Positions 12,483-24,042 of a stretch of 24,880 nt of DNA are shown here, piece after piece. This DNA is from a virus. The position numbers and the translations under genes are program-made. The DNA lies in the IMG/VR virus record IMGVR_UViG_3300047318_000398, positions 1 through 24,880 of that record; one strand, written 5' to 3'. The notes below the pieces were generated by a model. The model did no database searches. It was not told where the DNA came from and saw only the letters and a list, made by a program, of their open reading frames with translations. Within the stretch, counting starts at the first letter, position 1, and each line of letters begins with the position of its first letter.

Positions 12483-14000
12483 CTAGAAGACCGAGTCGAG
12501 GACGTTGTAAGCAGAACCGGCAAGCAGATGAGAACGAGTCACATAGGACCAGCGGGCAAGCGTCATGGCCACCAGTGGACTGATGTCGGTCTCGGCACCC
12601 TTTGCGGTCCACGCAATCGTGTCCGAGGTCTGCCGTGTCTTCGCGCCGGCCACGGCGACATCCAACTGCCGGCTCGGCACATACCGGAAACTCTCCTCAC
12701 GGATCGCCTCCAGCAACTGCCCGGCCGCCGCCGCCATATCCACGGCTCCCGTCACCGCCAGGGCCCCGGGCTCCGGCTGCTCCGGATCCTCGGGCTTGGC
12801 GAACCCGGCCTTGTCGAGGTCGGTCTCCAGGAACGCGTACGTCCCCCGGCCCATCGCGACCGCCACCGGTCCCAGCGCGTCTCGCAGTTCAGCAAGGCGC
12901 GGGATCAGCCACTTCGAGCCGGGACGGTAGTCGGCCAGCTGCACATGCCCGAGACCGTCCTCACGCACCCCGTACACGCAGATCGCGGCATAGTCCCGCA
13001 GCGGCGACAGATCCACGCCGAGCGCCACACCACCCGTACGCCGCGACTCGCCATCGGCAAGCCGCGCCCACACCCCGGCGTCGATGACGACGTTGCCCTG
13101 CGACTTACGAGGCCAGACACACAGCCGCTCACGCGCGAACCCGGCATCGCCCATCGACCGCCGCTCGCGCAGGATCGTCTCGATCGTCAGCCGGATCCCC
13201 AGCGCCGGATTGGAGCTGGCCCACAGGGCCCGGTCGTCCAGGTCGAGTTTGTCGAGGTGGTCGAGGTCGCCCTCGACACCCCAATCCCGGTAGCCAAGCG
13301 AGTCGTCGCCGCCGGCCTCCGCCCGCTCCCGCAGGGCGAACATCACCTCACCGCTCCCGCCGTCCAGCGGCGGCGACGAGGTGTAGATGATCTGCGGGTT
13401 GGGCCGGGCCGACATCGTCGGCATCAGCGCGTCCTGCTGGAGCAGCGTGTACGCGAACGCCTCATCGATGACGTTCAGATCGCCGGAGAAGCCACGGCCC
13501 GAGCCCTTCGACCGGGCGATGAACTTCACCCGGGCCCCGGTGTCAAGTCGCTCGAAGCCCTCTTCACCGTTGGTGTTGACGACCTTGACGAGCACGCCAC
13601 CCACGGTGATCAGATTCTCGGACACTGGCGTGCCAAGCCGCTTGAGCAAGGTCTTGAAGCGCCGGAACGCCTCCATCGACGTCTTGTACTCGTGCGCCGA
13701 CCACATGATCAGCTGCTCGTCCAGGAGCAAGAACCCGGCGAGGACCCGGGCCTCAAGCAGAGAGCCCTTGCCGTTCTGCCGGGCCACGAACTCGCAGTAC
13801 TCGAAGCACGCCCACTTGCCGTCGGCACGGCAGGCCAGCAGCAGATCGAGCGCATCGGCCTGCCACGGATCCAGCGTCAGCCCGCCCCGGCCGGCCAGTT
13901 CCCTCGCCTCCGGCCCCAGCGTGTACGCGTACGGCGGAGCAAGGTCAACCCTCGGCCTGCTGGCGCCTCTCAGCGATCCGCGCGGTGAGGTCCGAGACAC
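12483..14000 (-). CDS. Terminase large subunit
   Basis: The motor ATPase and nuclease that pumps and cuts phage DNA. I choose GTG 14000 (505 residues) because GGAGG lies 6 bases upstream; ATG 14027 and others lack this. The gene overlaps the small terminase by 56 bases. Motifs: Walker A-like ARQNGKG (73-79), Walker B VIDEA (177-181), a coupling YTSSP (207-210 region) and nuclease GVDLSP with Asp330. The HK97/phiC31-like Walker A lacks the usual Gly-rich loop, as in many Terminase_1-like proteins. The C-terminal part contains the RNase H-type nuclease. Together with the HNH gene and adjacent small terminase it forms the packaging set. Confidence 0.95.
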   Translation of the reverse strand: MSRTSPRGSLRGASRPRVDLAPPYAYTLGPEARELAGRGGLTLDPWQADALDLLLACRADGKWACFEYCEFVARQNGKGSLLEARVLAGFLLLDEQLIMWSAHEYKTSMEAFRRFKTLLKRLGTPVSENLITVGGVLVKVVNTNGEEGFERLDTGARVKFIARSKGSGRGFSGDLNVIDEAFAYTLLQQDALMPTMSARPNPQIIYTSSPPLDGGSGEVMFALRERAEAGGDDSLGYRDWGVEGDLDHLDKLDLDDRALWASSNPALGIRLTIETILRERRSMGDAGFARERLCVWPRKSQGNVVIDAGVWARLADGESRRTGGVALGVDLSPLRDYAAICVYGVREDGLGHVQLADYRPGSKWLIPRLAELRDALGPVAVAMGRGTYAFLETDLDKAGFAKPEDPEQPEPGALAVTGAVDMAAAAGQLLEAIREESFRYVPSRQLDVAVAGAKTRQTSDTIAWTAKGAETDISPLVAMTLARWSYVTRSHLLAGSAYNVLDSVF

Positions 14001-14304
14001 CCGTGACCTCCGGCCTGCTCGTGTCATCCGAGGACGCCGAATCCCGCCGGACATCGGCCAAGAGCGCCCGAAGAGCACCGGACTGCTGCCGGGATTCAGC
14101 CAAGAACCGCAGCATGTCGGCGTAGTGCGCCCGGTTCTCGGCGATCAGCTCATCGAGTACCTGGAGCCGGTCAGCGATCCGGCACGCCTCCTCCAGCAGC
14201 ACCAGATCGGCAGGGTTCGGGGTCCGGTCAGCGACAACGTCACGCCACAGCTTCTGGCCGCGTGCGTCGAGCCCCGGCGGCGCGTTGGATGCAAGCGTAG
14301 ACAT
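13945..14304 (-). CDS. Terminase small subunit
   Basis: A 119-residue protein from ATG 14304; TTG 14334 would add 10 residues. It is predicted to bind the packaging site and recruit the large subunit. Sequence: APPGLDARGQKLWRDVVADR followed by TPNPADLVLLEEACRIADRL, the P27-type small terminase pattern, then a long helix with EARQQSGALRALLAD-like repeats (ESRQQSGALRALLADVRRDS). The tail overlaps the start of the large subunit. Its place just downstream of the repeat region 14518-14590 supports recognition of a site there. There is no strong ribosome site. Confidence 0.9.
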   Translation of the reverse strand: MSTLASNAPPGLDARGQKLWRDVVADRTPNPADLVLLEEACRIADRLQVLDELIAENRAHYADMLRFLAESRQQSGALRALLADVRRDSASSDDTSRPEVTGVSDLTARIAERRQQAEG

Positions 14305-14342
14305 ATCGGTCAACTCGCAGTAGTCTGTGGACAATTGAAGAG

Positions 14343-14435
14343 CTAGGCCGCCGGACCGAGGTTGATCCGCTCAGCGAGATCCCCGCCAGCACCGACCAGC
14401 TCACCATCACCCGCCACGCAGACCACCATGATCAT
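14343..14435 (-). CDS. Possible 30-residue peptide ahead of small terminase
   Basis: A short open frame from ATG 14435 to TAG 14343. It is preceded by CAGGGGCAAG, a fair ribosome site, and reads VAGDGELVGAGGDLAERINL with a hydrophobic MIMVVC start. Codon use is G/C-biased at third positions. It lies between the repeat region and the small terminase, eight bases before the longest possible terminase start. It may be a real small phage protein or a translated leader. I do not recognise it. Confidence 0.4.
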   Translation of the reverse strand: MIMVVCVAGDGELVGAGGDLAERINLGPAA

Positions 14436-14590
14436 CTTGCCCCTGCCTAAAAAGTAGCGGGGGGAGAGGACTTTGAGGTGAGGGCGGGGTCAAAGGCCAT
14501 GATCACAAAAAAACGCATTTCCGCAGGTCAGGGGCATACGTGCAGGTCAGAAGCGTGATGGCCGGTCTCGTCCGTGTTTCCGCAGGTCAG
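14436..14590 (-). other. Probable packaging (cos/pac) region with three GCAGGTCAG repeats
   Basis: Non-coding gap of about 150 bases between the HNH and terminase genes. GCAGGTCAG occurs at 14523, 14542 and 14582, with the 14-base TTTCCGCAGGTCAG repeated exactly at 14518 and 14577. It also has an A-run (CAAAAAAACGC) and a G-run (GCGGGGGGAGAGG). Placement between a phage HNH enzyme and the small terminase is where cos sites lie in many actinophages. The cut position cannot be read from sequence. Confidence 0.55.
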
Positions 14591-14880
14591 AGCGCTGCCG
14601 CGTTGATCGTGAAGCCCGTCCGTGGTCGTGACCTGCCCCGAAGCCGGTTGGACTTGATCGTGTTGCAGCGCCGGTGCGCGAGCCGGCAGTTCTGCCGGTC
14701 GAGGGGATCGCCGCCTTGCCACATCTCGTGGATGTGGTCGACGGTGCGGCTCATCGGGTGCGTGCGCGGCAGTTCCTGGTCGACGTGCTTGCGGCACAAC
14801 CAGCAGTGGGTTTCTTCTGCGTAGACCTGTGCCTGCACCGTCAGCCATGCGGTGCCGGAGCGTCCGGGGCTGTAGGTCAT
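14587..14880 (-). CDS. Phage HNH endonuclease
   Basis: A 97-residue protein from ATG 14880 with a GGGGG site 5 bases upstream; GTG 14886 is an alternative. HNH signature: Cys26/Cys29 (CWLC), SRTVDHIHEMWQGGDP with His49, Asn64 in RQNCRLAH, His69, then RCNTIKSNR with Cys72. The two CxxC-type pairs form a zinc site. Stand-alone HNH enzymes next to terminase are needed for specific cos cleavage in several phages (HK97 gp74 is the studied case). The gene ends inside the third GCAGGTCAG repeat. Its place immediately upstream of the terminase supports a packaging role rather than a homing role. Confidence 0.92.
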   Translation of the reverse strand: MTYSPGRSGTAWLTVQAQVYAEETHCWLCRKHVDQELPRTHPMSRTVDHIHEMWQGGDPLDRQNCRLAHRRCNTIKSNRLRGRSRPRTGFTINAAAL

Positions 14881-14891
14881 GGCCACCCCCG

Positions 14892-15149
14892 CTACAGCAG
14901 GTCGTCGTCAGCGTCGTACCAGTCGATCGAGTGGAGGCTGATGTCCCCGGTGTCGCCTCGGGTGAACGTGGGGGTCATGGCGTGGGCGCCAGCGGGAGCG
15001 TTGGGAGCCTCCATCCAGTACAGGTACTGGCGTGGCCCGTCTTGTTCGCGGTGGTGGATGCGTGCTGGTGCGAGTAGGTGTGCGTGTTGCTCGAATGCGT
15101 CGGTGAGTTCGGCGGTGACGGCGAGGGCGATGAGTCGCTGCTCGGTCAT
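14892..15149 (-). CDS. Small hypothetical phage protein
   Basis: An 85-residue protein from ATG 15149, with a perfect GGAGG 5 bases upstream. It begins TEQRLIALAVTAELTDAFEQ, a helix, then has HLLAPARIHHREQDGPRQYL, and ends with the acidic SIDWYDADDDLL. It ends 11 bases before the HNH gene, so both are likely in one transcript that starts near 15211. I do not recognise a family. It may be the first gene of the late operon. Confidence 0.75.
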   Translation of the reverse strand: MTEQRLIALAVTAELTDAFEQHAHLLAPARIHHREQDGPRQYLYWMEAPNAPAGAHAMTPTFTRGDTGDISLHSIDWYDADDDLL

Positions 15150-15170
15150 GGTTGCCTCCGGACATGCCGA

Positions 15171-15190
15171 AGGCCCGGTCTCCCGGGCCT
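15171..15190 (-). terminator. 8-bp hairpin in leader of the late operon
   Basis: AGGCCCGG pairs with CCGGGCCT around TCTC. It sits between the candidate promoter (15218-15247) and the GGAGG of the gene starting at 15149. It may terminate transcripts from the gene upstream or act as an attenuator of the late transcript. The 10-base palindrome CCTCATGAGG (15188-15197) overlaps its edge. Confidence 0.6.
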
Positions 15191-15209
15191 CATGAGGCAA
15201 TACGTCCAA

Positions 15210-15247
15210 CATGACAGATCATGCGCTGCGCGCTGGGCCTGCGTCAA
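15210..15247 (-). promoter_or_regulatory. Candidate late promoter with overlapping operator
   Basis: On the minus strand TTGACG (15242-15247) is followed after 18 bases by CATGAT (15218-15223), five of six bases matching TATNAT-type -10s. The inverted repeat CATGA-TCTG-TCATG (15210-15223) covers the -10 and start site, a typical repressor-binding position. Predicted transcription start is near 15211, with the first gene at 15149. Confidence 0.6.
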
Positions 15248-15465
15248 GCGGCAACGCTGTGCTTGTCAAGGGCTTGGGCGATATCGGCGAGATCCCATAG
15301 GGCGGTGGCTTGGCCGCCGTTGGGGTTGGGTCGGGAGCCGGTGGGCTTGATGTGGTGGCGTACGGCCCAGCCGCGGAAGCTGCCGGGCTTCATGCCGAGG
15401 GAGTAGGCGGCGGCTGCGGTGTCGACGAGGGTGCGGCTGTCCCGGCCGGCGAGTGTGGTGGTCAC
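15244..15465 (-). CDS. Small helix-turn-helix DNA-binding protein
   Basis: A 73-residue protein from GTG 15465, whose GTGA overlaps the upstream TGA (15462-15464). It contains DTAAAAYSLGMKPGSFRGWA, a helix-turn-helix start as in excisionase/AlpA or phage MerR-like proteins, followed by VRHHIKPTGSRPNPNGGQAT and ALWDLADIAQALDKH. This layout (helix, recognition helix, beta-wing with GRxNPxG, then DLxxIxxAL) is common in small actinophage regulators. It could act on the nearby CATGA inverted repeat. Co-translated with the zinc-ribbon gene. Confidence 0.75.
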   Translation of the reverse strand: MTTTLAGRDSRTLVDTAAAAYSLGMKPGSFRGWAVRHHIKPTGSRPNPNGGQATALWDLADIAQALDKHSVAA

Positions 15466-16034
15466 GATGCGGCCGCCAGGTTGGTCGTCAGTAGGTACAT
15501 GCGGGTCCCGTCGTACCTCGCCGGACGCCCGTCCTCGTCCGCGCACTCGGGGTTCGTACACCAGGCGCGCGGCCGGTCATCGTCTGCCCGTCCGTATATG
15601 GTGCGGGCGCCGCAGATGAGGCACAGGGCGTGCCGGAAGTGCGTGGACGGCTGCCGCAACCCCAGCACGGTGAGACAGGTGCCGTGCCACTGCCCGACGG
15701 TGCGCATGGCCTCGGTGACGCGGTCGGTCTGCTCCGCTGTGGGCGGGATGGCGCGCATGGCCCGGTCCCAGCGCTGCGGGTGGCTGGAGGCGCGGAGTTC
15801 CATGTCGAGGATGACGGCCTCGGCTTTGATGCGGGTGGCCCAGTGGACGGCGTCGAGGCTGGCGGGTGGCCGGCTGCCGGGTGTGGAGTGTCCGCCGGTT
15901 TGCCGGGGTTGGGTGGTGCGTTGGGTGAGGTTGTCGAGGCGGGTGATGAGGCCGGGGCCGCCGTCGCCGGGGCGGTCGGTGTCGCCTCGGTAGGCGTCGA
16001 GTAGGTCGTGGATGAGGTCGTCAGGCGTCGCCAT
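15462..16034 (-). CDS. Zinc-ribbon protein of phage accessory region
   Basis: A 190-residue protein from ATG 16034 with GGAG 7 bases upstream. The N-terminal third is helical and acidic (MATPDDLIHDLLDAYRGDTD). A helical middle (DAVHWATRIKAEAVILDMEL, then RVTEAMRTVGQWHGTCLTVL) follows. The C-terminal part has a Cys4 cluster: CLIC ... CTNPEC with GRADDDRPRAW between, a zinc ribbon. Similar proteins occur next to phage HTH genes in actinophages, with no known function. It reads into the HTH gene through a 4-base overlap. Binding of nucleic acid or a partner through the zinc ribbon is the best guess. Confidence 0.8.
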   Translation of the reverse strand: MATPDDLIHDLLDAYRGDTDRPGDGGPGLITRLDNLTQRTTQPRQTGGHSTPGSRPPASLDAVHWATRIKAEAVILDMELRASSHPQRWDRAMRAIPPTAEQTDRVTEAMRTVGQWHGTCLTVLGLRQPSTHFRHALCLICGARTIYGRADDDRPRAWCTNPECADEDGRPARYDGTRMYLLTTNLAAAS

Positions 16035-16221
16035 GGGTTGCTCCGGGGTGCGGGTGGCGGGCTGGTTACCGGTACTCGTGGTGTGATGGTAACGGGGTTG
16101 TAGTGTGGGTGGTGGTGAGGCGTGGGGTTGTGGGCTCGTCTGCGGCGGCAGGCGGGCCCACTTCTGTGTCGGAGCGTCGTTATCTGATGGGAGACCCCAA
16201 CACCACCGAGGAGAGCTGACG
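16035..16221. promoter_or_regulatory. Divergent control region with GTTACC-N17-GGTAAC inverted repeat
   Basis: This 187-base gap separates the minus gene starting at 16034 from the plus gene starting at 16222. GTTACC (16065-16070) and GGTAAC (16088-16093) form an inverted repeat with 17 bases between. The minus-strand TACCAT (16086-16091) could be a -10 lying in the right arm. A plus-strand TAGTGT (16101-16106) is a weak -10 candidate. No clear -35 is seen for either. Confidence 0.4.
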
Positions 16222-16440
16222 ATGCCCGCCCCTAAATGTGAAGACTGCGGCAAGCGCACCACCCCGCAGGACCGCACCATCCGTCCCGCTGAGGTCGACG
16301 GCACTGGCACGCCCCGACCGCGCGAGGTGTGGCACAAGACCTGTCTGGAGGACGAGGCGGACGCAACCTCGGAACTCATGGGTGAGGACGAGATGACGGA
16401 AGAGGACGCCCTGCATGCGGACCACGTGTTCCGGATGTGA
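16222..16440 (+). CDS. Small plus-strand zinc-binding protein
   Basis: A 72-residue protein from ATG 16222 with GAGGAGAG upstream. It starts MPAPKCEDCGKRTTPQD with CxxC and later has WHKTCLEDEADAT, so Cys pairs and a His could bind zinc. The C-terminal half is strongly acidic (SELMGEDEMTEEDALHADHV). It is the only clear plus-strand gene between the late and transfer-like operons. It faces a strong hairpin terminator at 16464-16496. It could be a lysogen-expressed or early gene. I do not recognise it. Confidence 0.78.
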   Translation: MPAPKCEDCGKRTTPQDRTIRPAEVDGTGTPRPREVWHKTCLEDEADATSELMGEDEMTEEDALHADHVFRM

Positions 16441-16463
16441 TCTCCGCGCCCGGACACAGCAAA

Positions 16464-16496
16464 GGCCTCACCGCGACGGGGGAACGCGGTGAGGCC
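16464..16496. terminator. 12-bp bidirectional terminator between convergent genes
   Basis: GGCCTCACCGCG pairs perfectly with CGCGGTGAGGCC around a 9-base loop. It lies between the end of the plus gene (16440) and the end of the minus transfer-like operon (16522), and it can stop transcription from both sides. An AAA tract precedes the left arm, so minus-strand RNA ends in U. Confidence 0.85.
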
Positions 16497-16521
16497 CAGC
16501 TATGTTCAGTGTCGCAGGCGG

Positions 16522-16806
16522 TCAGCCCTCAGGCGGCTCGCACCGGCAATCCTCCGGGTCAGCGCCCTGCCCGATCACACACGCGCAGTAGACCGCGCCG
16601 AAAGGGCCAGTGGCAGTGACGCCGTTCTCGTCGCCGCCGTAGCAGTGATCGCACTCGCCGGGCTTCCACTCACCATCACCCGGGCAGTCACAGCCGCAGG
16701 GGCAGCCACCTCCACAGTCGCAGCGGCACATACCCTCGCCGCACGGCTGCTCGTCGTCCTCGTACTGGTCGGGGACGGCTTCGTCGGTGTTCGTCATGGT
16801 GCTCAT
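16522..16806 (-). CDS. Cysteine-rich small protein (14 Cys)
   Basis: A 94-residue protein from ATG 16806; ATG 16797 fits the GAGAGG spacing better and would give 91. It has an acidic start (TNTDEAVPDQYEDDEQP) followed by a dense Cys region, CGEGMCRCDCGGGCPCGCDC, then ECDHCYGG, VYCACVIG and DCRC. Fourteen cysteines in 94 residues suggest binding of several zinc ions, or possibly metallothionein-like metal storage. The YGG and CxxCxG-type spacing also recalls zinc-finger domains. It is the last gene of the minus-strand transfer-like operon, just before a strong terminator. I do not recognise a specific family. Confidence 0.75.
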   Translation of the reverse strand: MSTMTNTDEAVPDQYEDDEQPCGEGMCRCDCGGGCPCGCDCPGDGEWKPGECDHCYGGDENGVTATGPFGAVYCACVIGQGADPEDCRCEPPEG

Positions 16807-16817
16807 CCTCTCGCTGG

Positions 16818-16955
16818 TCACTTTCCGGTGGCCGGCTTCTGCGGGGCCGGGGTCTTCGGCGGCGGGTAGTAGCCGGCGCGCTTGGAGTCGTACGTGTCGG
16901 ATCGGTCGGTCTGCCGGTTGGGGTCGCGGGTCGGCAGGTTGTTGGGCAGGGCCAT
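16818..16955 (-). CDS. 45-residue hypothetical protein of transfer-like operon
   Basis: This short gene runs from ATG 16955, with GAGAGAGG about 10 bases upstream, to TGA 16818-16820. The protein reads MALPNNLPTRDPNRQTDRSD and then TYDSKRAGYYPPPKTPAP, a polar chain ending in a Pro/Lys-rich tail. The TRDPNRQTDRSD segment looks conserved-like rather than random, and codon use fits. It lies between the zinc-finger/TM protein and the Cys-rich protein. Function is unknown. Confidence 0.6.
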   Translation of the reverse strand: MALPNNLPTRDPNRQTDRSDTYDSKRAGYYPPPKTPAPQKPATGK

Positions 16956-16992
16956 GATGGTGGCGCCTCTCTCGATGATCGGGATGGGTTGA

Positions 16993-17034
16993 CCGGCGCG
17001 GCCGAGCTGCTTGGCGGTGGGACGGCCGCGCCGG
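16993..17034 (-). terminator. 12-bp GC hairpin within the operon
   Basis: CCGGCGCGGCCG pairs perfectly with CGGCCGCGCCGG around an 18-base loop, directly after the stop codon of the gene ending at 17037. It is likely a terminator or attenuator that reduces expression of the two short genes that follow. Confidence 0.7.
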
Positions 17035-17036
17035 AA

Positions 17037-17288
17037 TCAGTGGGGGCCCCAGCAGTTCGCCAGGACCAGGGCGAGCAGGACCAGCAGCGCCCACGGCCAG
17101 CCGGCGGGCAGCAGTCCGTCGCCGCGTGCTTGCGCGTGGACGTGCCGTACGCCGTCCCCCGCTGCCGGCGCCAGTCCTCCGTGCGCTACTCGGCGGTGTT
17201 CGGCGAGGTCGTCCTCGGCGTCCTCGCGGCGGTCGTGGCGCTCGGGTGAGGCGGCGTCGCAGGCCCGGCACTCGTACACGTAGGGCAT
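17037..17288 (-). CDS. Small C2H2-type zinc-finger/transmembrane protein
   Basis: An 83-residue protein from ATG 17288, sharing one base with the upstream stop (TGATG). The N-terminus MPYVYECRACDAASPERHDR has a CxxC, and EHRRVAH supplies two His, forming a C2H2-like finger. The middle GDGVRHVHAQARGDGLLPAG is followed by one hydrophobic segment (WPWALLVLLALVLANCWG) at the C-terminus. I recall proteins of this layout in Streptomyces integrative elements next to transfer genes. It is probably membrane-anchored with the finger in the cytoplasm. Exact role unknown. Confidence 0.75.
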   Translation of the reverse strand: MPYVYECRACDAASPERHDRREDAEDDLAEHRRVAHGGLAPAAGDGVRHVHAQARGDGLLPAGWPWALLVLLALVLANCWGPH

Positions 17289-18061
17289 CACGCAGCCCCT
17301 CTCCGCAGGAGCCGCCGAACGGCCGAGAGGGGCGTAGCTACGTCTGTAGCGGCATCTCCTACATCGCAGGTCAGAGCCGTAGCTACAGGGCCGCTACGCG
17401 CCTCAGAAGGGGTACCGGTCGCGGCCTGGGGGAGGGCTTGTTCCCAGGCCTTGAGGCCGTCCCGGTGGACCCCCTCATTCACCTTCCCGGCAGCATCCCG
17501 GACGGACCCCCGGACGGGGATGCCGAGGGCGGCCAGCTTGACCCTCACCTGGGCCCGGTCGACGGGTGTCTCGGGGGCTGCCGCCTGGAGGTGCTTCGTG
17601 AGGGTCTTGAGGTGCACGCCGGGGGCGTTTCCGATGAGTTGCCAGAGGACCGTGACGATCGGGATGAGGGGCTGCTCCTCCCCCGTCTCTGCGGTGTCCT
17701 CCGGCGTGGTGTCGCGGTGGCGTTCGCCGAGCTGCTCGATGGCGGCGGCGGCCCGCTCCAGGTGCTCGCGCGGGGTGAACAGCAGGACGGCCAGCAGCCA
17801 GACCAGCACGATCGTGACCGCCGTCCAGCCCCGGTAGAAGAAACACGCCCACAGGCCGACGAGGTGCGCGCCCCAGGCGACGCCGGTGCCAAAGCGGGCA
17901 GCCAGCCATGCGCCGGGGCCGCATACGCCGGCCAGGATGGCGGCCGTCCAGGTGCCGGGCACCTCCTCGACGGCTGCCTCGTCCTCCGGCTCTTCGGCAG
18001 TCTCGTCGAGGTCCTCGTCGACGGGCTCCGGCTCGGGTTTGCGCAGGCTGATGAAGCTCAC
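17288..18061 (-). CDS. Membrane protein with C-terminal winged-helix-like domain
   Basis: A 257-residue protein from GTG 18061, overlapping the upstream stop by 4 bases (GTGA). An acidic N-terminus (EPEPVDEDLDETAEEPEDEA) is followed by hydrophobic segments (TWTAAILAGVCGPGAWLAAR, then AVTIVLVWLLAVLLF). A soluble region ending in PLIPIVTVLWQLIGNAPGVH, LKTLTKHLQAAAPETPVDRA and QVRVKLAALGIPVRGSVRDA resembles a small winged-helix domain. The combination resembles Spd-like membrane proteins of Streptomyces plasmids, where such proteins assist spread of the element between hyphal compartments. The specific name is not certain. Confidence 0.75.
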   Translation of the reverse strand: MSFISLRKPEPEPVDEDLDETAEEPEDEAAVEEVPGTWTAAILAGVCGPGAWLAARFGTGVAWGAHLVGLWACFFYRGWTAVTIVLVWLLAVLLFTPREHLERAAAAIEQLGERHRDTTPEDTAETGEEQPLIPIVTVLWQLIGNAPGVHLKTLTKHLQAAAPETPVDRAQVRVKLAALGIPVRGSVRDAAGKVNEGVHRDGLKAWEQALPQAATGTPSEARSGPVATALTCDVGDAATDVATPLSAVRRLLRRGAA

Positions 18062-18462
18062 GACAGGCTCGTTCCGAGGTGGGCGATGGAGTCGGAGATG
18101 TACGACCAGGTCCCGCCCGCGCCTGCGGCGATGTACCAGAAGAAGATCCCGAGGTAGCCGAGTTGCTTGGTGGTCAGCTTCTTGAACAGGACGAACACCG
18201 CCAGGGCGAGTGCGAGCGCGGGCATGGTGACGTCGGGGATGAAGCCGTTGATGGTGCCGATGATGCTGCCCACGAAGTCTGAGACGACCTTGAAGAAGCC
18301 GCCTGCGGCCTTGTACGCGGACCCGGCGAGCATGCTGAGGATCAGGGTGGGCCACCAGCCGAGCGGCTTGAGTTTGCCGCCGCCGGGGATGCCGACGATC
18401 AGCAGCACGGTGAGCACCAGGGCGAGCCCGACCGGGCCGAGATTGCCGAAGACGCTGTTCAC
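18058..18462 (-). CDS. Integral membrane protein
   Basis: A 134-residue protein from GTG 18462, with AGGA 7 bases upstream. It has three or four hydrophobic segments: VGLALVLTVLLIVGIPGGGK, WWPTLILSMLAGSAYKAAGG, VTMPALALALAVFVLFKKLT and LGYLGIFFWYIAAGAGGTWS. It resembles small multi-pass proteins in Streptomyces transfer clusters. It is co-translated with the next gene and lies downstream of another membrane protein, so the four proteins could form one membrane complex. No catalytic motif is visible. Confidence 0.78.
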   Translation of the reverse strand: MNSVFGNLGPVGLALVLTVLLIVGIPGGGKLKPLGWWPTLILSMLAGSAYKAAGGFFKVVSDFVGSIIGTINGFIPDVTMPALALALAVFVLFKKLTTKQLGYLGIFFWYIAAGAGGTWSYISDSIAHLGTSLS

Positions 18463-18470
18463 GAGGGTTC

Positions 18471-19094
18471 CTAGTGGTGGTAGCCGGTGCCGTACAGCAG
18501 AACGCCGACGACGGTGGATGAGACGGGGACGGCGGCGGCCCATGCGACAGGCCACGTCCGGGACCGCGTGCGCTGGTAGAGGGCGACGGCACAGATCCCG
18601 AGCCCGTACAGCACCCATGACGACCGGGCCGTCCAGTGCCCGGCGGGAAACCAGGCCGCGGTGTTGGTAGCCCAGTGGACCCAGCCGAGCCGCCAGCCCG
18701 CTCCGGCCGCTGCGGCGTGGTAGGCAAGCCACTTCAGGCGGGGCGGGACGCGGCCCCAGGCGCCGAGGAGGGATTGGCGGGTGGCAGGCGGCCGGCTGTC
18801 GAAGGCGGTGCGCGGTGCGGCCGGGTCGTGGGGCGGGCGCTTCTTCCGCTTCTTGGGCTTGGCGGCCGGCGCCTTCGGTGCGGGCTCGGGCGCGGCCGGG
18901 GGCTTGGGTTCGGTGGCAGGTTCGTCCGGGGCCGGCGCGGGGGTGTTGCTGTCGAGGATGTCGTCGAGCCAGTCGCGGGGCGGCTTGGTGGGCTTCGGCG
19001 GGATCGGTCGCGGGGGCGTGGCGTCGGGGCCTACGCCGCGGGCGCGGAGGATGTGGCGGACGCGGAGCTCGTCCGCACCGGGGATGGTGGTCAC
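18471..19094 (-). CDS. Membrane protein with Lys/Pro-rich cytoplasmic region
   Basis: A 207-residue protein from GTG 19094, whose GTGA overlaps the stop of the SpdB-like gene. The N-terminal 90 residues are hydrophilic: DELRVRHILRARGVGPDATP, a Pro-rich linker, then AAKPKKRKKRPPHDPAA. The C-terminal half has hydrophobic segments (LKWLAYHAAAAGAGWRLGWV, WVLYGLGICAVALYQRTR, WAAAVPVSSTVVGVLLYG). It may link a membrane complex to DNA or a partner protein through the basic stretch. The family is not recognised. Position in the operon suggests a function in transfer. Confidence 0.75.
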   Translation of the reverse strand: MTTIPGADELRVRHILRARGVGPDATPPRPIPPKPTKPPRDWLDDILDSNTPAPAPDEPATEPKPPAAPEPAPKAPAAKPKKRKKRPPHDPAAPRTAFDSRPPATRQSLLGAWGRVPPRLKWLAYHAAAAGAGWRLGWVHWATNTAAWFPAGHWTARSSWVLYGLGICAVALYQRTRSRTWPVAWAAAVPVSSTVVGVLLYGTGYHH

Positions 19095-20209
19095 AGGTAC
19101 AGCCCCGTTCCATCGCTGACCCGGCCGCGCGCTTCCTTGAGTCGTCGGCCGGCGGTGGCCGGGCTCACGGCGAGGATTTCGGCGGCGGTGTTCTTGGTGA
19201 GCCGCTCGCCGCGCCTGAGCCGGGCGGCGAGTTCGGTGATCTGCTGCTCCTGCTCGCCGGCCTCCGGCTCACCGGCGGGCTCAGGATCCGGCTCAAGGGC
19301 GCTGAGGGTGGTGGGCTCAGCCGGGCTCAAGACCGGCTCACGTGAGATCACCTGGTCAGCGGGTGTGACGAGTGGCTGGACCGGGTCGGCGATGACGGCT
19401 TGCGGCTCAGTGCTGGTGACGGTGAGCGCGGTGGTGACCGTCGTCTCGAAGTCCGGCGGCTCAGGCTCACCGGGCTCGGGCTCAGGGCTCAACGACGGCT
19501 GAGCCGGGGTGAGCTCGGGGCGTACCGGGGTGCCGGTGAGCATCCCGGCAAGGGCCTCGTCCGCGCCCTCGGTGAGCCGGTCCCGCTGTACGGCGATGAG
19601 CCCGGCGCCGAGTTGGGTGTCGCCTTCTCCGATGCGGCTCATGAGCCGCCAGGCCTTCAGGGCGGACCGCTTCCGTACCCACGTCTTGGGGTGGCGTTCG
19701 GCGCGCGCCCGGTGGTAGGCGATCCGGCGCAGCAGCGTGGCATTGCGGCGCTGCGCCTCGATGTCCACTCCGGTGCGGTGCGCGACGATCCGGCGGGCGA
19801 GCAGGCCGAGGCCTTCCGCGCTGACGGTCATGGCCATGGGAGTAACGGCGAAGACGACGGCGTCTCGGAGGCCGGGCGCGACGATCGCGCCAGTGACGGA
19901 TGCGGTCGCGGGCAGCAGCCACAGGCCGGCGCGCACGGCCAGGGGGGCGGGCTGGCCGAGCATGGTGAGGCCGACGAGGACCAGGGCGAGGACGAGGGTT
20001 GCGCCTTCACCGGCGGCGACGACGCCGAGGGCGGTGGGGGCGCGGTGGAGGACGCTGGTGATGTTGGTGTAGGTGCCCCATGCGCCGAGTCCTCCGGCTG
20101 CGATCATGGGGAGGGTGGCGGCGGCGAGGATGGCTTGCTGGCCTCGGGTGAGAGTCGGTTCACCCCCGTCCTTCTGGTGGCTGGGGGCGCTGTGGCGGCG
20201 CGTGGGCAC
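19091..20209 (-). CDS. SpdB-like spread/transfer membrane protein
   Basis: A 372-residue protein from GTG 20209, with GGAAGG 6 bases upstream. It has four hydrophobic segments in the first 150 residues (AILAAATLPMIAAGGLGAWG, LVLALVLVGLTMLG, WLLPATASVTGAIVAPG, AVVFAVTPMAMTVSAEGLGL). A basic region (RRNATLLRRIAYHRARAERH) follows. A long Glu-Pro linker then leads to a C-terminal helix-turn-helix-like end, RLTKNTAAEILAVSPATAGR. Four N-terminal TM helices with a C-terminal DNA-binding region is the layout of SpdB/DUF2637 proteins of Streptomyces plasmids and AICEs. No TraB translocase is in the window. The annotation is inferred from layout. Confidence 0.65.
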   Translation of the reverse strand: MPTRRHSAPSHQKDGGEPTLTRGQQAILAAATLPMIAAGGLGAWGTYTNITSVLHRAPTALGVVAAGEGATLVLALVLVGLTMLGQPAPLAVRAGLWLLPATASVTGAIVAPGLRDAVVFAVTPMAMTVSAEGLGLLARRIVAHRTGVDIEAQRRNATLLRRIAYHRARAERHPKTWVRKRSALKAWRLMSRIGEGDTQLGAGLIAVQRDRLTEGADEALAGMLTGTPVRPELTPAQPSLSPEPEPGEPEPPDFETTVTTALTVTSTEPQAVIADPVQPLVTPADQVISREPVLSPAEPTTLSALEPDPEPAGEPEAGEQEQQITELAARLRRGERLTKNTAAEILAVSPATAGRRLKEARGRVSDGTGLYL

Positions 20210-20237
20210 GGTGGTCCTTCCGGGGTTTGGGTTGGGT

Positions 20238-20269
20238 GGCCGCACCCCGCCGGGTGGTGGGGTGCGGCC
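20238..20269 (-). terminator. 11-bp hairpin upstream of SpdB-like gene
   Basis: GGCCGCACCCC pairs with GGGGTGCGGCC around a 10-base loop, 30 bases before the GTG start at 20209. It may separate the upstream small genes from the membrane-protein genes. It may also act as an attenuator in the leader. Confidence 0.6.
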
Positions 20270-20328
20270 GTGCCGGGTCTACGCCGGTGGGGGAACGCGG
20301 CGGGCCCGGCGGTATGGGGCTGGATGGG

Positions 20329-20547
20329 TCAGGCGTGCCGGGGCTTCCAGGTGCCGTTGTTCGCGGTGTTCAGCTCGTCCAGCGCCTCGTCGGCGGCCTC
20401 GCCCATGCGGGCGGCCATCCCGTGCTGGCCGGCGGCCTGCAGGTCACGCTGTGCGCTGCGGGCGGATGCCACGTCGGCCTTGATGTCGCTCTTCAGCTGC
20501 TCGTCGGAAACGGTGCCGGGGGCGAAGAAGTGGCGGGCAGAGGACAT
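20329..20547 (-). CDS. 72-residue helical protein of mobile-element type
   Basis: From ATG 20547 with AGGAG about 10 bases upstream. It reads ARHFFAPGTVSDEQLKSDIK, then a helical segment ADVASARSAQRDLQAAGQHG and ends GTWKPRHA. Proteins of this shape recur in Streptomyces integrative elements and phages as small hypothetical proteins, without assigned role. The amphipathic helix suggests a partner-binding protein. It lies between the RapZ-C gene and the SpdB-like gene, so it is probably in the same transcript. Confidence 0.75.
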   Translation of the reverse strand: MSSARHFFAPGTVSDEQLKSDIKADVASARSAQRDLQAAGQHGMAARMGEAADEALDELNTANNGTWKPRHA

Positions 20548-20577
20548 GGGTGGGTGCTCCTTGGCTTGTGGGTTGGG

Positions 20578-20967
20578 TCAGCGCTGTACGACAGGGCGGT
20601 TGATGTCGCGGTGAATGACGGTCACGGTGTGTCCGCGGCGGCGGAGGCGGCGGGCGAGCTGGTCGGCGACGACGACGGAGCGGTGCCGGCCGCCGGCGCA
20701 TCCGGAGCCGATGACGATTTCCTGGGCGGAGGGTCCGGCGGTATATGCCTGTGCCTGTCGGGCGGTGGCGCGCAGGAGACGGCGGATGCCGGTGGTGGCC
20801 AGGACGGCGCGGCGGACGGGGCTGTCGCGGCCGGTGAGTTCGCGCAGGCGGGGGTTGATGTGGGGGTCGCGGAACGCCCTGCGCAGGTCGAGGGTTATGT
20901 CGGCTTCGGGGGCGGGGCCGTGGAGGTAGCCGAAGGAGATGATCCTGATGCTGATTGGGGCGTTCAT
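20578..20967 (-). CDS. Stand-alone RapZ C-terminal domain protein
   Basis: A 129-residue protein from ATG 20967, whose ATGA overlaps the upstream stop. It matches the C-terminal half of RapZ: RIISFGYLHGPAPEADITLD, LDLRRAFRDPHINPRLRELT, SGCAGGRHRSVVVADQLARR with the GCxGGRHRSV motif (89-98), then VTVIHRDINR (HRDI 119-122). The N-terminal P-loop kinase half of RapZ is absent. In E. coli the RapZ C-domain binds the sRNA GlmZ and RNase E partners. In this setting the ligand is unknown; it might bind a nucleotide, sugar or RNA. It is carried in a mobile-element operon, not next to glmS. Confidence 0.9.
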   Translation of the reverse strand: MNAPISIRIISFGYLHGPAPEADITLDLRRAFRDPHINPRLRELTGRDSPVRRAVLATTGIRRLLRATARQAQAYTAGPSAQEIVIGSGCAGGRHRSVVVADQLARRLRRRGHTVTVIHRDINRPVVQR

Positions 20968-21167
20968 GGCGGGTCCTCATCAGGTCGGTGGGTGGGGACC
21001 GGGCCACGGCGTGGGGGTTGACCGTGGCCCGGCCGTCTGGGGGGGTAGTCGTCGGGTGTGGTGTATGGGGGTTCGAGCTGGGTGCCGGTCTGCTGGCGGG
21101 CGTAGGCGTCGGCTGCCTGGCGTTCCTCGGCCGTGGTGAGGGTGGCGTCGTCGGCGGGCTCGGTCAT
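20964..21167 (-). CDS. 67-residue acidic/proline-rich protein
   Basis: From ATG 21167 (sharing one base with the preceding stop, TGATG) to the ATGA overlap with the RapZ-C gene. It reads TEPADDATLTTAEERQAADA, a short helix, then YARQQTGTQLEPPYTTPDDY and a Pro/Arg-rich tail. It is probably mostly disordered. Tight coupling on both sides indicates the gene is translated. No family recognised. Confidence 0.7.
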   Translation of the reverse strand: MTEPADDATLTTAEERQAADAYARQQTGTQLEPPYTTPDDYPPRRPGHGQPPRRGPVPTHRPDEDPP

Positions 21168-21418
21168 CAGTTGCTGCTCCCGTCCGTGTCGGCCTGGCCC
21201 AGGTGGCTGTGCATCCAGTCGGGCAGGGCCTTCGCGGGCCGGGTGGTGGGCTGGTTGGGGGTGTGCTGCTTGGTGTGGTTGGCCATGAAGGTCCGGTAGT
21301 GCTCGGCCTCGGCTTCGGTCACGCCCCGGAAGCGGATCTGCATGTCGCAGTCGAGGGCGGGGCAGGTGAGGCGCTTGTAGCCGCCGAGCCAGTCGGCGAG
21401 CCTGCGGATGATGGTCAT
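21167..21418 (-). CDS. Small C2H2-like zinc-binding protein
   Basis: An 83-residue protein from ATG 21418. It starts IIRRLADWLGGYKRLTCPAL with Cys pair C-x4-C (CPALDC), followed by HYRTFMANHTKQH, supplying His residues. The spacing resembles a C2H2-type finger. The C-terminus is polar (PDWMHSHLGQADTDGSSN). Such small C/H-rich proteins are frequent in Streptomyces mobile elements. It may bind DNA or a protein partner. It is coupled to the next gene by a one-base overlap. Confidence 0.72.
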   Translation of the reverse strand: MTIIRRLADWLGGYKRLTCPALDCDMQIRFRGVTEAEAEHYRTFMANHTKQHTPNQPTTRPAKALPDWMHSHLGQADTDGSSN

Positions 21419-21440
21419 ATGGGTTTGGCCTCCGGGCGGG

Positions 21441-21599
21441 TCAGCGCAGGTCGCGGGTTGCGGACTTGTCGAGTTCCGCGCGGGACCGGGCGGCGTCCGG
21501 GCGGTTGTAGTCGTTGGCGCAGTCCTGGACGGTGACGGGCTGGTCCCAAGGGATGTCTTCGGGGCGGACGTCGGCCGGCGGGTCGGTGCGGTAGCTCAC
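21441..21599 (-). CDS. 52-residue protein, hypothetical
   Basis: From GTG 21599, overlapping the upstream stop (GTGA), to TGA 21441. It reads SYRTDPPADVRPEDIPWDQP, then VTVQDCANDYNRPDAARSRA and ELDKSATRDLR, an acidic N-terminus with one helix at the end. The 4-base overlap and the steady codon use support translation. I see no known domain. Confidence 0.65.
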   Translation of the reverse strand: MSYRTDPPADVRPEDIPWDQPVTVQDCANDYNRPDAARSRAELDKSATRDLR

Positions 21600-21754
21600 T
21601 GGGCACCGCCGTTGGTGAAGCGGTGGCATGCGGCTGCGGCGGCATCGGCGGCCTTCGCAGCGGCGGTGGCGGCGGCGATCCGCTGCTGGGTCTGCGCGGC
21701 GAGTGCGCGGGCTGCGGCGCCCTGGTCGGCGGGGGCCTGGCGGGGGTCGCTCAC
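21596..21754 (-). CDS. 52-residue Ala-rich helical protein
   Basis: From GTG 21754 (GTGA overlap with the upstream stop) to TGA 21596-21598. It is very Ala-rich (ARALAAQTQQRIAAATAAAK, then AADAAAAACHRFTNGGAQ), predicted as one long helix. It could be an oligomerising or partner-binding peptide. Coupling on both ends supports expression, although composition alone gives no function. Confidence 0.62.
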   Translation of the reverse strand: MSDPRQAPADQGAAARALAAQTQQRIAAATAAAKAADAAAAACHRFTNGGAQ

Positions 21755-21966
21755 AGGGCACCGTCCGGGCGGGGCATGGCGCGGAGGATGTCGGTGACCA
21801 TGTCGGCGGGGAGCAGGCCCTTGTCGATGGCGGCGAGCGACGCGAACTCGCGGGCGATGCGTTCCCGGCCCTGGCCGAGCAGATCCTTGTAGCGGGCGTT
21901 CTCGGCCTCGTTGGTGTCGGCGGCCTTGCGGAGGAGCGTGGCGGCTTCTTCGAGGTAGCGGCTCAC
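21751..21966 (-). CDS. 71-residue coiled-coil protein
   Basis: From GTG 21966 (GTGA overlap with the upstream stop) to TGA 21751-21753. Sequence SRYLEEAATLLRKAADTNEA, then RYKDLLGQGRERIAREFASL and AAIDKGLLPADMVTDILRAM gives a long amphipathic helix followed by a shorter one. It is the first of three consecutive short coupled genes. It may oligomerise or bind the adjacent small proteins. I do not recognise a family. Confidence 0.68.
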   Translation of the reverse strand: MSRYLEEAATLLRKAADTNEAENARYKDLLGQGRERIAREFASLAAIDKGLLPADMVTDILRAMPRPDGAL

Positions 21967-22394
21967 AGGGCGCCGCCGGCGCGGAGGGTGGCGTGGGCGG
22001 AGGCGGCGCGGAGGCGGGTGCGCCAGGCGCGGGTGTAGCCGAGGGGGCGGCGGCGGTGGAGGAGCTGCTCGGCGGTGGAGAGGGTGGCCTTCGCGGCGTG
22101 GATGGTGCCGGCGGGGACGCTGCGGGCGGGGTGGCCGCAGTGGCGGAGGATCGACTCGGCGGTGGCCGGGTCGGTGTGGGGGACCCGGCGGGTGGTGTAG
22201 GTGCAGGCGGTGCAGGTGTAGTGCATGCCGGTGGCGTCGGCGTGGGCGTGGGGGGCGTGGGTGGGCTTGGCGGTGTCGCAGGCGATGCAGGTGGGGGCGT
22301 CGCTCCAGGTGTCGCACTGGGCGCACCGCCAGGTGGCGGCGGCGTGCGTCGGCACGGGGCTGTGCTGGCGGGCGGGCTGATCGGTAACCTGCAT
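21963..22394 (-). CDS. Zinc-ribbon protein, first gene of transfer-like operon
   Basis: A 143-residue protein from ATG 22394; upstream ATGs at 22445 and 22487 are possible but poorly supported. It contains TWRCAQCDTWSDAPTCIACD, a W-x-C-x2-C-x8-C-x2-C finger like RanBP2-type zinc fingers. A second motif, YTCTACTYTTRRVPHTDPAT, with LRHCGHPARS supplies a second Cys/His set. The C-terminus is Arg/Ala-rich and helical (STAEQLLHRRRPLGYTRAWR). It is the first gene after the divergent promoter region. A nucleic-acid-binding role is plausible. Confidence 0.75.
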   Translation of the reverse strand: MQVTDQPARQHSPVPTHAAATWRCAQCDTWSDAPTCIACDTAKPTHAPHAHADATGMHYTCTACTYTTRRVPHTDPATAESILRHCGHPARSVPAGTIHAAKATLSTAEQLLHRRRPLGYTRAWRTRLRAASAHATLRAGGAL

Positions 22395-22473: not shown

Positions 22474-22491
22474 CTCTTGTTGTGCAATGCC

Positions 22492-22528
22492 AGAGTTGCA
22501 GAGCCTCTTTACAAACGTCAAGAGGCTC
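22492..22528 (-). promoter_or_regulatory. Candidate promoter and operator of divergent operon
   Basis: The perfect inverted repeat GAGCCTCTT-N10-AAGAGGCTC (22501-22528) covers a minus-strand TTGACG (22516-22521), followed after 18 bases by AACTCT (22492-22497). It ends right at the GGGGAGG ribosome site of the plus-strand regulator gene. A protein bound here could control both directions. No good plus-strand promoter was found. Confidence 0.55.
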
Positions 22529-22543
22529 GGGGAGGATGTTGCC

Positions 22544-22942
22544 GTGCCCAAGAGCCCTGAACCAGAGGGGAGTCCGCGCTTGATGACCGTCACCGAGATC
22601 GCGGCGGAGCACGGGGTCAGCCGCCAGTCGATCCACACGTACCGACGGACCGGTGTCTTCCCTCCGCCTGTCGAGGGTGAGGGCAGCACGCGCCTGCGGT
22701 TCCGTTCGGACGAGGTGGCCGCGTTCTTCGAGGCGAACCCAAAGCAGCCAGGCAAGAAGCGGGGGACCACTCCTCGGGAGCAGCAAGGAGGCCGATCAAT
22801 GACGGTGTATGTGGTGACGATGCGGGTTGAGGCGGAAGCCGAAGTCGATGCGACACAGATTCGAGAGGAGGTCTATGACGCCTGTCGTGACGTGTCGTTC
22901 GGCTTCGACATCACCAGCGTGACCGAGGGGGATGGTTCGTGA
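22544..22942 (+). CDS. Helix-turn-helix regulator, divergent from transfer-like operon
   Basis: A 132-residue protein from GTG 22544, chosen because GGGGAGG lies 8 bases upstream; the ATG at 22487 is upstream of the palindrome. DNA-binding segment: MTVTEIAAEHGVSRQSIHTY, a helix-turn-helix with recognition helix SRQSIHTYRR, then GEGSTRLRFRSDEVAAFFEA, a MerR/AlpA-type wing region. The last 47 residues (MTVYVVTMRVEAEAEVDATQ...) form a separate small alpha/beta domain and can also be made alone from the internal ATG at 22799. It probably represses the minus operon through the palindrome at 22501-22528. Confidence 0.82.
   Translation: MPKSPEPEGSPRLMTVTEIAAEHGVSRQSIHTYRRTGVFPPPVEGEGSTRLRFRSDEVAAFFEANPKQPGKKRGTTPREQQGGRSMTVYVVTMRVEAEAEVDATQIREEVYDACRDVSFGFDITSVTEGDGS
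22799..22942 (+). CDS. Internal in-frame start: 47-residue C-terminal domain made alone
   Basis: AAGGAGG (22785-22791) stands 7 bases before ATG 22799, in the same frame as the regulator. The resulting 47-residue product contains the whole C-terminal domain (MTVYVVTMRVEAEAEV, EEVYDACRDVSFGFDITSVT). Alternatively two genes were fused by loss of a stop codon. A shorter form could act as an inhibitor or partner of the full-length regulator. Confidence 0.55.
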   Translation: MTVYVVTMRVEAEAEVDATQIREEVYDACRDVSFGFDITSVTEGDGS

Positions 22943-23182: not shown

Positions 23183-23962
23183 CTACCGGCGCACTGCCGC
23201 CCGAACCTCCCCAGTCAGCGCCCGGTGCCGCGCATTGCTGTGCCGCGCCCCATGCTCACCCACAGCAGCAGCGAGCGCCCGGCACCGCACCTCACACCAC
23301 ACGGCCACGGCGTCAGGGTCAGCCGCGTCCCAGGCCGGAACCGTGCCCGCCCAGTCGCAGGCGTCCCGCGCGGTGTGCCCGTCCTCCATCAGCCGGACCG
23401 CAGCCTCGGCCGTGTCCGCCCACCCGGGGCCCCTGGAGGGCATGGCCCAGTCCACCAGCCACGCCCGGCTGTTGACGAGCAGGTTGTGGGGGTTGATGTC
23501 GCCGTGCACCAGCTGGCTGCCGCTGAGCAGCGCGCGCTCGTCCGGGGTGGTCACGTCCGCCCACTGGTCAGCCCACGCGGATAGCCTGCCGGGCGCGGCC
23601 AACATGCTGCTGCGGGCCAGGACTTCGGCGACGGCCAGCAGGTCGGGCGAGCCGGGGCCGAGGTCGGCGTGCCGGCCGGGGACCGCGTCGAAGGCGATCA
23701 GGTCCCAGCCGTCGGCCTCCGTGCGCCAACGGACCTGCGGGCCGACGCCGGCGGTGTGCGGGGCGACGGCGACCTCTCGGCCGTGGTCGTCGGAGTGGGC
23801 GCTGTTGCCCTTGACGAACACCTTGAGGACGGACGTGGTGAGCACGGCGGCGGTCTGGCAGTTGTAGCCGTACGGGACGTCGCGGGCCGCTGTGACGGGC
23901 CCGGTGTGGGCGGTGACGGCGGCACGGACGGCGGCGGGCAGGTCGGCCCAGAGCGTGCGCAT
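23183..23962 (-). CDS. Aminoglycoside phosphotransferase-family kinase
   Basis: A 259-residue protein from ATG 23962, sharing one base with the stop of the 26-residue gene upstream; the longer frame start lies inside that gene. It has the protein-kinase-like APH fold: possible ATP lysine in SVLKVFVKGN (Lys47/51), Glu63 in HGREVAVA, the catalytic loop LVHGDINPHNLLVN with Asp155 and Asn160, and metal-binding Asp171 in WLVDWAMPSRGPGW. All key residues are present, so it may be active. Substrate cannot be predicted; APH-family proteins phosphorylate antibiotics or small metabolites. It is a separate transcription unit, likely cargo. Confidence 0.88.
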   Translation of the reverse strand: MRTLWADLPAAVRAAVTAHTGPVTAARDVPYGYNCQTAAVLTTSVLKVFVKGNSAHSDDHGREVAVAPHTAGVGPQVRWRTEADGWDLIAFDAVPGRHADLGPGSPDLLAVAEVLARSSMLAAPGRLSAWADQWADVTTPDERALLSGSQLVHGDINPHNLLVNSRAWLVDWAMPSRGPGWADTAEAAVRLMEDGHTARDACDWAGTVPAWDAADPDAVAVWCEVRCRALAAAVGEHGARHSNARHRALTGEVRAAVRR

Positions 23963-24042
23963 CAGCCCTGGGTGGCTCCGCACTTGCGGCAGCGCTGTTT
24001 GCCGCTCCACTGCGTCCATTCATGATCGCAATTGGCGAGCAT
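23962..24042 (-). CDS. 26-residue zinc-ribbon-like microprotein coupled to kinase
   Basis: From ATG 24042 with GGGAGG 5 bases upstream, an ideal ribosome site, to TGA overlapping the ATG of the kinase gene. It has a CxH pair (NCDH) and CRKC near the end with WTQWSGKQ between, which could bind one zinc ion. Similar small C/H peptides are common in Streptomyces mobile elements. Its translation probably drives the kinase gene, which has no ribosome site of its own. A weak -10 (TACGCT, 24074-24079) lies upstream. Confidence 0.7.
   Translation of the reverse strand: MLANCDHEWTQWSGKQRCRKCGATQG

Follow-up and report, generated by a model that had tools for sequence, protein, structure and literature searches.

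What is a set of genes of conjugation type doing directly in front of the terminase of a phage? The question is raised by the virus record IMGVR_UViG_3300047318_000398 of IMG/VR, analyzed here over its whole length of 24,880 bp (“the window”) and read as a phage fragment because it is the complete record and has no end repeats. Five adjacent genes on its minus strand, here called A to E (17037–20209), encode membrane proteins and belong to a longer gene run that lies just before the terminase genes. Our analysis indicates that this module very probably consists of conjugation-derived, Spd-type (spread-type) membrane proteins resident in the genome of a temperate Streptomyces phage.

One Gene Run in One Element

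Gene calling gives exactly 15 minus-strand genes between 22394 and 16522, in agreement with the tightly packed run of about 15 genes that an earlier note, made from the letters of this DNA alone, had described. Many junctions overlap by 1 or 4 bases (21966/21963, 21754/21751, 21599/21596, 21167/21167, 20967/20964, 19094/19091, 18061/18058, and 17288/17288). The same strand continues into a phage late operon, with genes for the terminase small and large subunits (terS and terL), portal, major capsid, major tail, and tape-measure proteins; their order is that of tailed phages with HK97-type heads. Relatives of the run's genes stand in the same order in independent contigs, and B to E are under purifying selection (below), which together argue that the run is more than a chance arrangement.

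Does this stretch belong to one element or to two? The earlier note had proposed a single hybrid element and, alternatively, a prophage beside an actinomycete integrative and conjugative element (AICE). A 36.8-kb contig, G001, whose terL is 97% identical to that of the window in the contig match, runs colinear with the window between the tape measure and an APH-like gene, including the whole of 14587–22394 and hence the supposed junction, with 70–99% protein identity for most shared genes. There is no tRNA in the window, and the arrangement of module followed by terminase recurs in at least six other elements: it is present in G009, G010, G012, G013, a prophage of S. typhae, and the phage-plasmids pSLE1, pSAM1, and CP108822. 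A mild shift in composition between the left and right halves (GC content and GC skew) favors a prophage adjoining an AICE or a plasmid, but colinearity and the repeated layout make two elements side by side extremely improbable; the prophage-beside-AICE version is refuted, and the single hybrid element stands.

AICEs combine an integrase, a replication initiator, and an FtsK-type Tra protein (PMC3218068). Integrase, FtsK, and AICE rep genes (the last searched with hidden Markov models, HMMs) were not found in the window or G001, and the window, a fragment with virion genes, does not have this combination. Searches for ParA, ParB, and a recombinase gave nothing in the window fragment, and those for ParA and ParB nothing in G000–G003; among the complete relatives there are both tRNA-integrated prophages and phage-plasmids of ~90 kb. 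The suggestion of a phage-plasmid or hybrid therefore holds in its second half, as one element that joins phage and conjugation-type genes; for the first half, the window supplies the virion genes and none of the ParA, ParB, or recombinase genes sought.

Protein A Belongs to the Transfer Modules of Conjugative Elements

Protein A (19091–20209, 372 aa, GTG start at 20209; all genes are on the minus strand unless stated) is a Spd-like membrane protein of a conjugation module. Its AlphaFold2 (AF2) model places membrane helices at residues 22–54, 57–83, 90–110, and 114–146, followed by a cytosolic helical part (150–225), a disordered linker (226–316), and a helix-turn-helix (HTH) at 317–365 with a predicted local distance difference test score (pLDDT) of ~89; the four N-terminal transmembrane helices and C-terminal HTH described in the earlier note are thus predicted by the model as well. 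The protein has no Pfam or NCBIfam assignment, its PHROGs match (phrog_16651, E 2e-55) carries no function, and a fold search of the PDB gave nothing convincing (best TatC, E 0.22). Weak Pfam matches, for example to TPR_DENND3 and DUF134, were disregarded.

Relatives of A are found in 65 of 296 Streptomyces genomes, and we inspected ~20 kb around 40 of these places. A TraB/FtsK-type gene lies near the A relative in 39 of the 40 loci, the lone exception ending at a contig edge; AICE rep and/or int genes are present in 30, and terminase plus portal in two. The AICE members of the family are encoded just upstream of the TraB/FtsK-type gene. Because of this association with TraB/FtsK-type (39/40) and rep/int (30/40) genes, we conclude that A is a protein of the DNA-transfer module of actinobacterial conjugative elements. 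Among named phages, relatives occur in Woodruffviruses and their relatives, and among plasmids in ~90-kb phage-plasmids, several large plasmids, and 15-kb linear plasmids. Searched at the DNA level, phages gave no match, and the sole match in plasmids was the A gene, in two phage-plasmids.

The link of A to the DUF2637 family is indirect and runs through position and structure. Proteins at position A in other phages are DUF2637 proteins (G002, E 2e-39; G008, E 1e-36); the closest phage relative of A, that of G012, aligns with DUF2637 in matching register at E 0.18; and Foldseek pairs A with two DUF2637-labeled phage proteins at probability 0.94, though with E 0.24–0.7. As a separate observation, Foldseek also matches A to gp25 of phage phiC31 (36291–37007; probability 1.0, E 0.016), a protein of similar design, with N-terminal transmembrane helices, a Pro/Glu linker, and a C-terminal HTH-like end, and with no Pfam match to DUF2637.

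Proteins B to E Stay while Position A Is Exchanged

Four further membrane proteins follow A, one more than the earlier note had counted. Protein B (18471–19094, 207 aa) has a charged, disordered N-terminal part and C-terminal transmembrane helices; C (18058–18462, 134 aa; phrog_38677, E 2e-29) is a hydrophobic membrane protein; D (17288–18061, 257 aa) shows, in its AF2 model, four helices forming a transmembrane region and a winged-helix domain at residues 127–216; and E (17037–17288, 83 aa) has a Cys-containing N terminus and one C-terminal transmembrane helix. The set B to E is kept in the viral contigs G002 and G007–G011, and relatives of B occur in the same order in these and in G001. Between the window and G001 the four proteins are 71–88% identical and under purifying selection, with ratios of nonsynonymous to synonymous change (dN/dS) of 0.2–0.5 (0.34 for B and 0.31 for C). 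The most conserved member of the module is C, with 58–87% identity in seven viral contigs, and E reaches 56–86% at the same place in seven related contigs. The winged helix of D matches winged-helix structures in the PDB (Z ~6), and D, which has no ATPase domain, resembles a protein of phage VWB (Foldseek E 7e-6). That D is a shrunken TraB, as its membrane helices and winged helix might suggest, was considered and set aside as unproven; larger D-like proteins of plasmids have no recognizable ATPase domain.

Position A, by contrast with B to E, is swapped, with different membrane domains in the window, G001, G002, G007, G008, G009, and G010. The membrane part of the G001 protein is unrelated to that of the window and has homologues in ~90-kb plasmids such as pSAM1, and in G002 a DUF2637 membrane part is followed by a C-terminal stretch with 60% identity to that of the window. 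Among A proteins, the HTH tail is present in those of the window, G012, G013, the S. typhae prophage, pSLE1, and CP108822; the DUF2637 protein of G002 has it too, and G001 has it weakly. None of 40 sampled chromosomal, mostly AICE-type, A proteins carries it, and there are phage forms without it (L041–L043, G014, and the Woodruffviruses). In a tree of the N-terminal part, the window clusters with phages and phage-plasmids (support 0.98), and other phages are placed among AICE forms, a topology that suggests several captures.

How closely does the module resemble known spd clusters? These consist of several (3–6) neighboring small genes that differ widely from one another and in part encode membrane proteins (PMC4170104). 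The window has several adjacent, diverse small genes at 17037–20209, with five membrane proteins, and one of them, A, is homologous to a protein encoded beside TraB in conjugative elements; no contiguous TraB/FtsK-type gene was found with HMMs in the window or G001. The look of several adjacent, very diverse small genes supports the Spd-type reading. Relatives of B, C, and E also occur, with a GntR gene, a replication-type gene, and an integrase, in an integrative element of a Streptomyces genome (L193, G107:C13) that gave no TraB or virion match in 20 kb; this is possibly a nonphage element using a TraB-less module.

No TraB-Type Motor Is Found near the Module

The search for TraB used HMMs built here from AICE genes, because the Pfam model PF01580 proved too insensitive and missed phage YDN12 and phage-plasmid CP108822. 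They detected no TraB-type gene in the window, G001, G002, G007, G008, G009, G010, G012, or G013, nor in the S. typhae prophage or phage VWB, and the largest gene between A and terS in the window encodes 257 aa. A scan for P-loop motifs recovers 32 of 46 known TraB-like members, so that absence by motif is weak evidence. The module is also present, with no TraB-type motor found, in two integrative prophages of 50.1 and 56.7 kb, which we regard as complete because of their terminal repeats: the G012 prophage ends in 44-bp repeats, and the S. typhae prophage (202,719–259,444) lies between 43-bp att repeats of a tRNA-Val 3′ end. To the left of the latter att site (NZ_WPNZ01000002.1, ~197600–202719) are phage-like genes similar to those at the right end of this prophage, which suggests a tandem prophage remnant at this tRNA-Val.

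In G003 and G004, relatives by their head genes (terL 78–79% identical), a TraB-like gene occupies the corresponding place, just upstream of the terminase, as it does in phage-plasmids. The traB gene that the earlier note had proposed to look for is thus not detected, and its “transfer operon,” understood as a self-transmissible module, is not upheld. Promoter and terminator scans were uninformative in this GC-rich host; no clt-like repeat array was found, and the tandem repeats listed inside the module are short and lie within genes.

What the Module May Do for the Phage

What could a Spd-type module do without TraB? We tentatively favor a membrane complex that would help phage DNA at the cross-walls of hyphae. 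The most likely mechanism in detail, itself less likely than not and drawn by analogy with plasmids, would have A to E hold phage DNA at the membrane and aid its passage to neighboring compartments with a borrowed motor. In plasmid pSVH1, the membrane protein SpdB2 forms oligomers, binds double-stranded DNA, and contacts TraB (PMC4170104). Protein A would likewise place its four helices in the membrane, oligomerize, and, as reported for SpdB2, tether phage or prophage DNA, here by means of its cytosolic helices and HTH end; B, C, and E would be further membrane subunits, and D would add a second membrane-anchored winged helix that binds DNA or protein. Made with or before the packaging genes and placed at hyphal cross-walls, the complex would allow replicating phage DNA to reach neighboring compartments of the same hypha. 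A borrowed motor, either the FtsK/SpoIIIE of the host or the TraB of a resident AICE, is proposed because none is encoded beside the module. The genes, with their order, relatives, and selection, and the missing motor near the module are observed in the sequences, whereas we infer the localization, DNA binding, spreading, and timing in this scheme. A related but unlikely version is mycelial spread independent of TraB, in which, after induction or infection, genomes would cross the cross-walls to sister compartments without virions; here phages could exchange the membrane domain at position A and would keep a phage-specific HTH tail constant.

Several points weigh against help with DNA at cross-walls. 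The role of a phage-borne module in DNA spread is argued by analogy; plasmid transfer depends on TraB, which is found neither here nor in the complete relatives examined, and the borrowed motor is an assumption. The absence is itself qualified, in that TraB is so diverse that HMMs can miss some members (the model c72 recovered none of the others). Confidence in the AF2 model of A is moderate overall (pLDDT 66). Protein A falls below the Pfam gathering cutoff for DUF2637 (PF10935), giving no match; a profile comparison with hhalign is not significant (E 0.003, probability 10%) and worsened with larger alignments (E 0.26). Nor does A have sequence similarity to SpdB of pIJ101; this agrees with published work, in which the spd genes of different plasmids are diverse and often bear no relation to one another (PMC4170104). 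The Spd-like relation put forward in the earlier note is therefore carried by the AICE relatives beside TraB-type genes and by DUF2637 proteins at position A elsewhere, and not by the DUF2637 model or by likeness to pIJ101 SpdB; the structural comparison that the note had suggested is similarly divided, with a high Foldseek probability beside weak E values and a nonsignificant profile match.

The main rival, not probable in itself and nearly as plausible as help with DNA at cross-walls, is exclusion: a TraB-less Spd complex would occupy the cross-wall or entry site and block AICEs, conjugative plasmids, or other phages. In its favor, the module keeps membrane and DNA-binding parts without a motor, the swapping of position A between related phages while B to E stay is expected of a specificity part, and the frequency of A relatives in Streptomyces, many of them AICE-borne, means that there is something to exclude. 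However, because the run that holds the module continues into the terminase genes, expression in the lytic phase seems likelier than in lysogeny. Exclusion often relies on a single gene, whereas here there are five with small partners, and genes like B to E also occur in plasmids and in one integrative element, none of which looks like a phage. It is improbable that the window derives instead from a phage-plasmid of the pZL12 type, with its own TraB-like motor in a part beyond the contig and the module as an ordinary conjugation cluster. The order GntR, A-like protein, T4CP (type IV coupling protein)/TraB-like protein, terS, terL in pSLE1, CP108822, and pSAM1, all ~90-kb circular replicons, and the TraB-like genes of G003 and G004 would fit such an origin, but in the plasmids, phage-plasmids, and AICEs examined the motor is encoded close to A and/or ahead of the terminase, a stretch fully present in the window; moreover, G001 reaches 9.5 kb further upstream with no motor found, and the ParA/ParB result given above does not favor a plasmid.

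Membrane-tethered control of transcription, with A and D as one-component regulators that sense the state of the envelope and time the late operon, is quite improbable, even though a clear HTH ends A, a winged helix ends D, and the HTH tail recurs in several phage and phage-plasmid forms, even on the unrelated membrane domain of G002, and on none of the 40 chromosomal forms. The AICE relatives belong to DNA-transfer modules, TraB-type proteins can also end in a winged helix, and B, C, and E have no recognized regulatory domain. Several small transmembrane proteins in one operon could also be the holins and spanins of a lysis cassette, and D matches Phage_holin_3_6 at E 0.15, far below the cutoff; Pfam and PHROGs scans of the genes near A to E gave no endolysin or lysin domain, the position is before the terminase, and A relatives occur in AICEs, which do not lyse cells, all of which makes lysis very improbable.

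In multicellular, septate bacteria, the lysis of one compartment need not reach the rest of the hypha. A conserved conjugation-type module before the terminase of temperate phages, including VWB, suggests a route for DNA rather than particles or, alternatively, a way to shut out other mobile elements. Spd-type proteins and the TraB motor are nearly always together in conjugative elements and are here apart, a natural setting in which to test the function of Spd proteins by themselves; since the cultured phage VWB carries the module, its role can be tested.

Neighboring Genes

Upstream of A, the run begins with a zinc-finger-like gene (21963–22394, 143 aa; 81% identical in G001), in which nonsynonymous exceeds synonymous change relative to G001 (21/14/8 substitutions by codon position); either the gene is diversifying or the annotated frame is not the coding one. 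It is followed by small genes of 71 aa (21751–21966) and 52 aa (21596–21754), both gene calls only, 52 aa (21441–21599; 76% in G001), 83 aa (21167–21418; an open reading frame, ORF, with high GC content at third codon positions, GC3), and 67 aa (20964–21167; 83% to G001 over the first 40 residues). A stand-alone RapZ C-terminal-domain protein of 129 aa (20578–20967; PF22740, E 4.5e-30), 50% identical to gp54 of YDN12, which is labeled an ATPase, and a 72-aa high-GC3 ORF of no family (20329–20547) precede A. Downstream of E lie a small soluble protein of 45 aa that is conserved at this place (16818–16955; 88% in G001, 40% in G013) and the last gene of the run, for a Cys/Gly/Asp-rich small protein (16522–16806), known as an ORF only and with no relatives found.

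Between the run and the terminase are genes for a DUF7341 protein (15462–16034; PF24030, E 7.7e-7; 95% in G001), proteins of 73 aa (15244–15465; 89% in G001, 61% in G005) and 85 aa (14892–15149; 96% in G001), and an HNH endonuclease (14587–14886; PF01844, E 6.9e-8; phrog_338, E 9e-22), followed by terS (13945–14334; phrog_1496, E 1e-20) and terL (12483–14078; phrog_9, E 9e-70). A plus-strand gene of 72 aa at 16222–16440, inside the minus-strand run, is 99% identical in G001, compared with 88–95% for its neighbors. Divergent from the run, on the plus strand, is a MerR/HTH_17 regulator (22487–22942; PF12728, E 2.7e-7; PF13411, E 7e-6) whose HTH is 59–80% identical in G009 and G010, near the same module; its position makes it a possible controller of the divergent transcripts. 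Elsewhere in the window are an APH-type phosphotransferase-family gene (23183–24019; 80% in G001) and, between head genes, a 24-bp direct repeat of 2.3 copies (10251–10306).

Comparison with Known Systems

A cultured counterpart is phage VWB of S. venezuelae (NC_005345), in which gp24–gp26 form a module 4–7 kb before terL. As in the window, a DUF2637-type protein or its positional equivalent, membrane proteins, and a D relative precede terL, with no TraB by HMMs: gp24 is of DUF2637 type (E 6e-95 against our own HMM of DUF2637 proteins), our gene calls place membrane proteins at 17642–17791, 17801–18412, and 18409–18918, and the D relative lies at 18915–19508 (E 3e-14). VWB differs from the window in that its position A is not of the window's A family and its B and C equivalents have no detectable sequence relation. 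The module genes are hypothetical in the deposited annotation, where gp25 and gp26 may be misframed, as our gene calls differ (region 16326–19508).

The phage-plasmids pSLE1 (S. leeuwenhoekii), pSAM1 (S. ambofaciens), and CP108822 (S. chartreusis), of the pZL12 type, share with the window an operon that joins an A-like membrane protein to small genes and is followed by terminase and head genes. The A protein of pSLE1 is 59% identical to that of the window and has the same HTH tail, whereas that of pSAM1 is like the G001 form. In all three, unlike in the window, a gene for a T4CP/TraB-like ATPase separates A from terS; pSLE1 also encodes ParA and ParB, and the remaining module genes of the three are unrelated to B to E by BLAST. 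The 89.7-kb pSAM1 itself resembles a pZL12-type phage-plasmid, with GntR, a G001-like A protein, and a T4CP-like gene, then terminase.

AICEs of the pSAM2 type and 15-kb conjugative linear plasmids carry A relatives of 44–74% identity, labeled “conjugal transfer protein” in several of the small plasmids; in contrast to the window, they have GntR, TraB, rep, xis, and/or int and no virion genes, and the sampled AICE forms of A are without the phage HTH tail. The Woodruffviruses YDN12, TP1604, Mischief19, and Xkcd426 have A relatives (41–48%) at the right genome end, which in YDN12 and Mischief19 lie near an FtsK/TraB-type gene and, unlike in the window, outside any run leading to the terminase. 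The FtsK/SpoIIIE-like gene of YDN12 (14425–16485) is a close relative of pIJ101 Tra/TraB (HMM E ~1e-134), so that this Woodruffvirus carries a pair of A-type protein and TraB like a small conjugative plasmid.

The SpdB of pIJ101 and SpdB2 of pSVH1 are, like A, membrane proteins of a transfer and spread region, with A and pIJ101 SpdB unlike in sequence. In the literature searched, with subscription journals mostly outside the search, no report was found of Spd/DUF2637 modules without TraB in integrating phages. A phage-plasmid with additional transfer functions is already known in pZL12, to judge from the title under which PMC4487206 cites Zhong et al. 2010.

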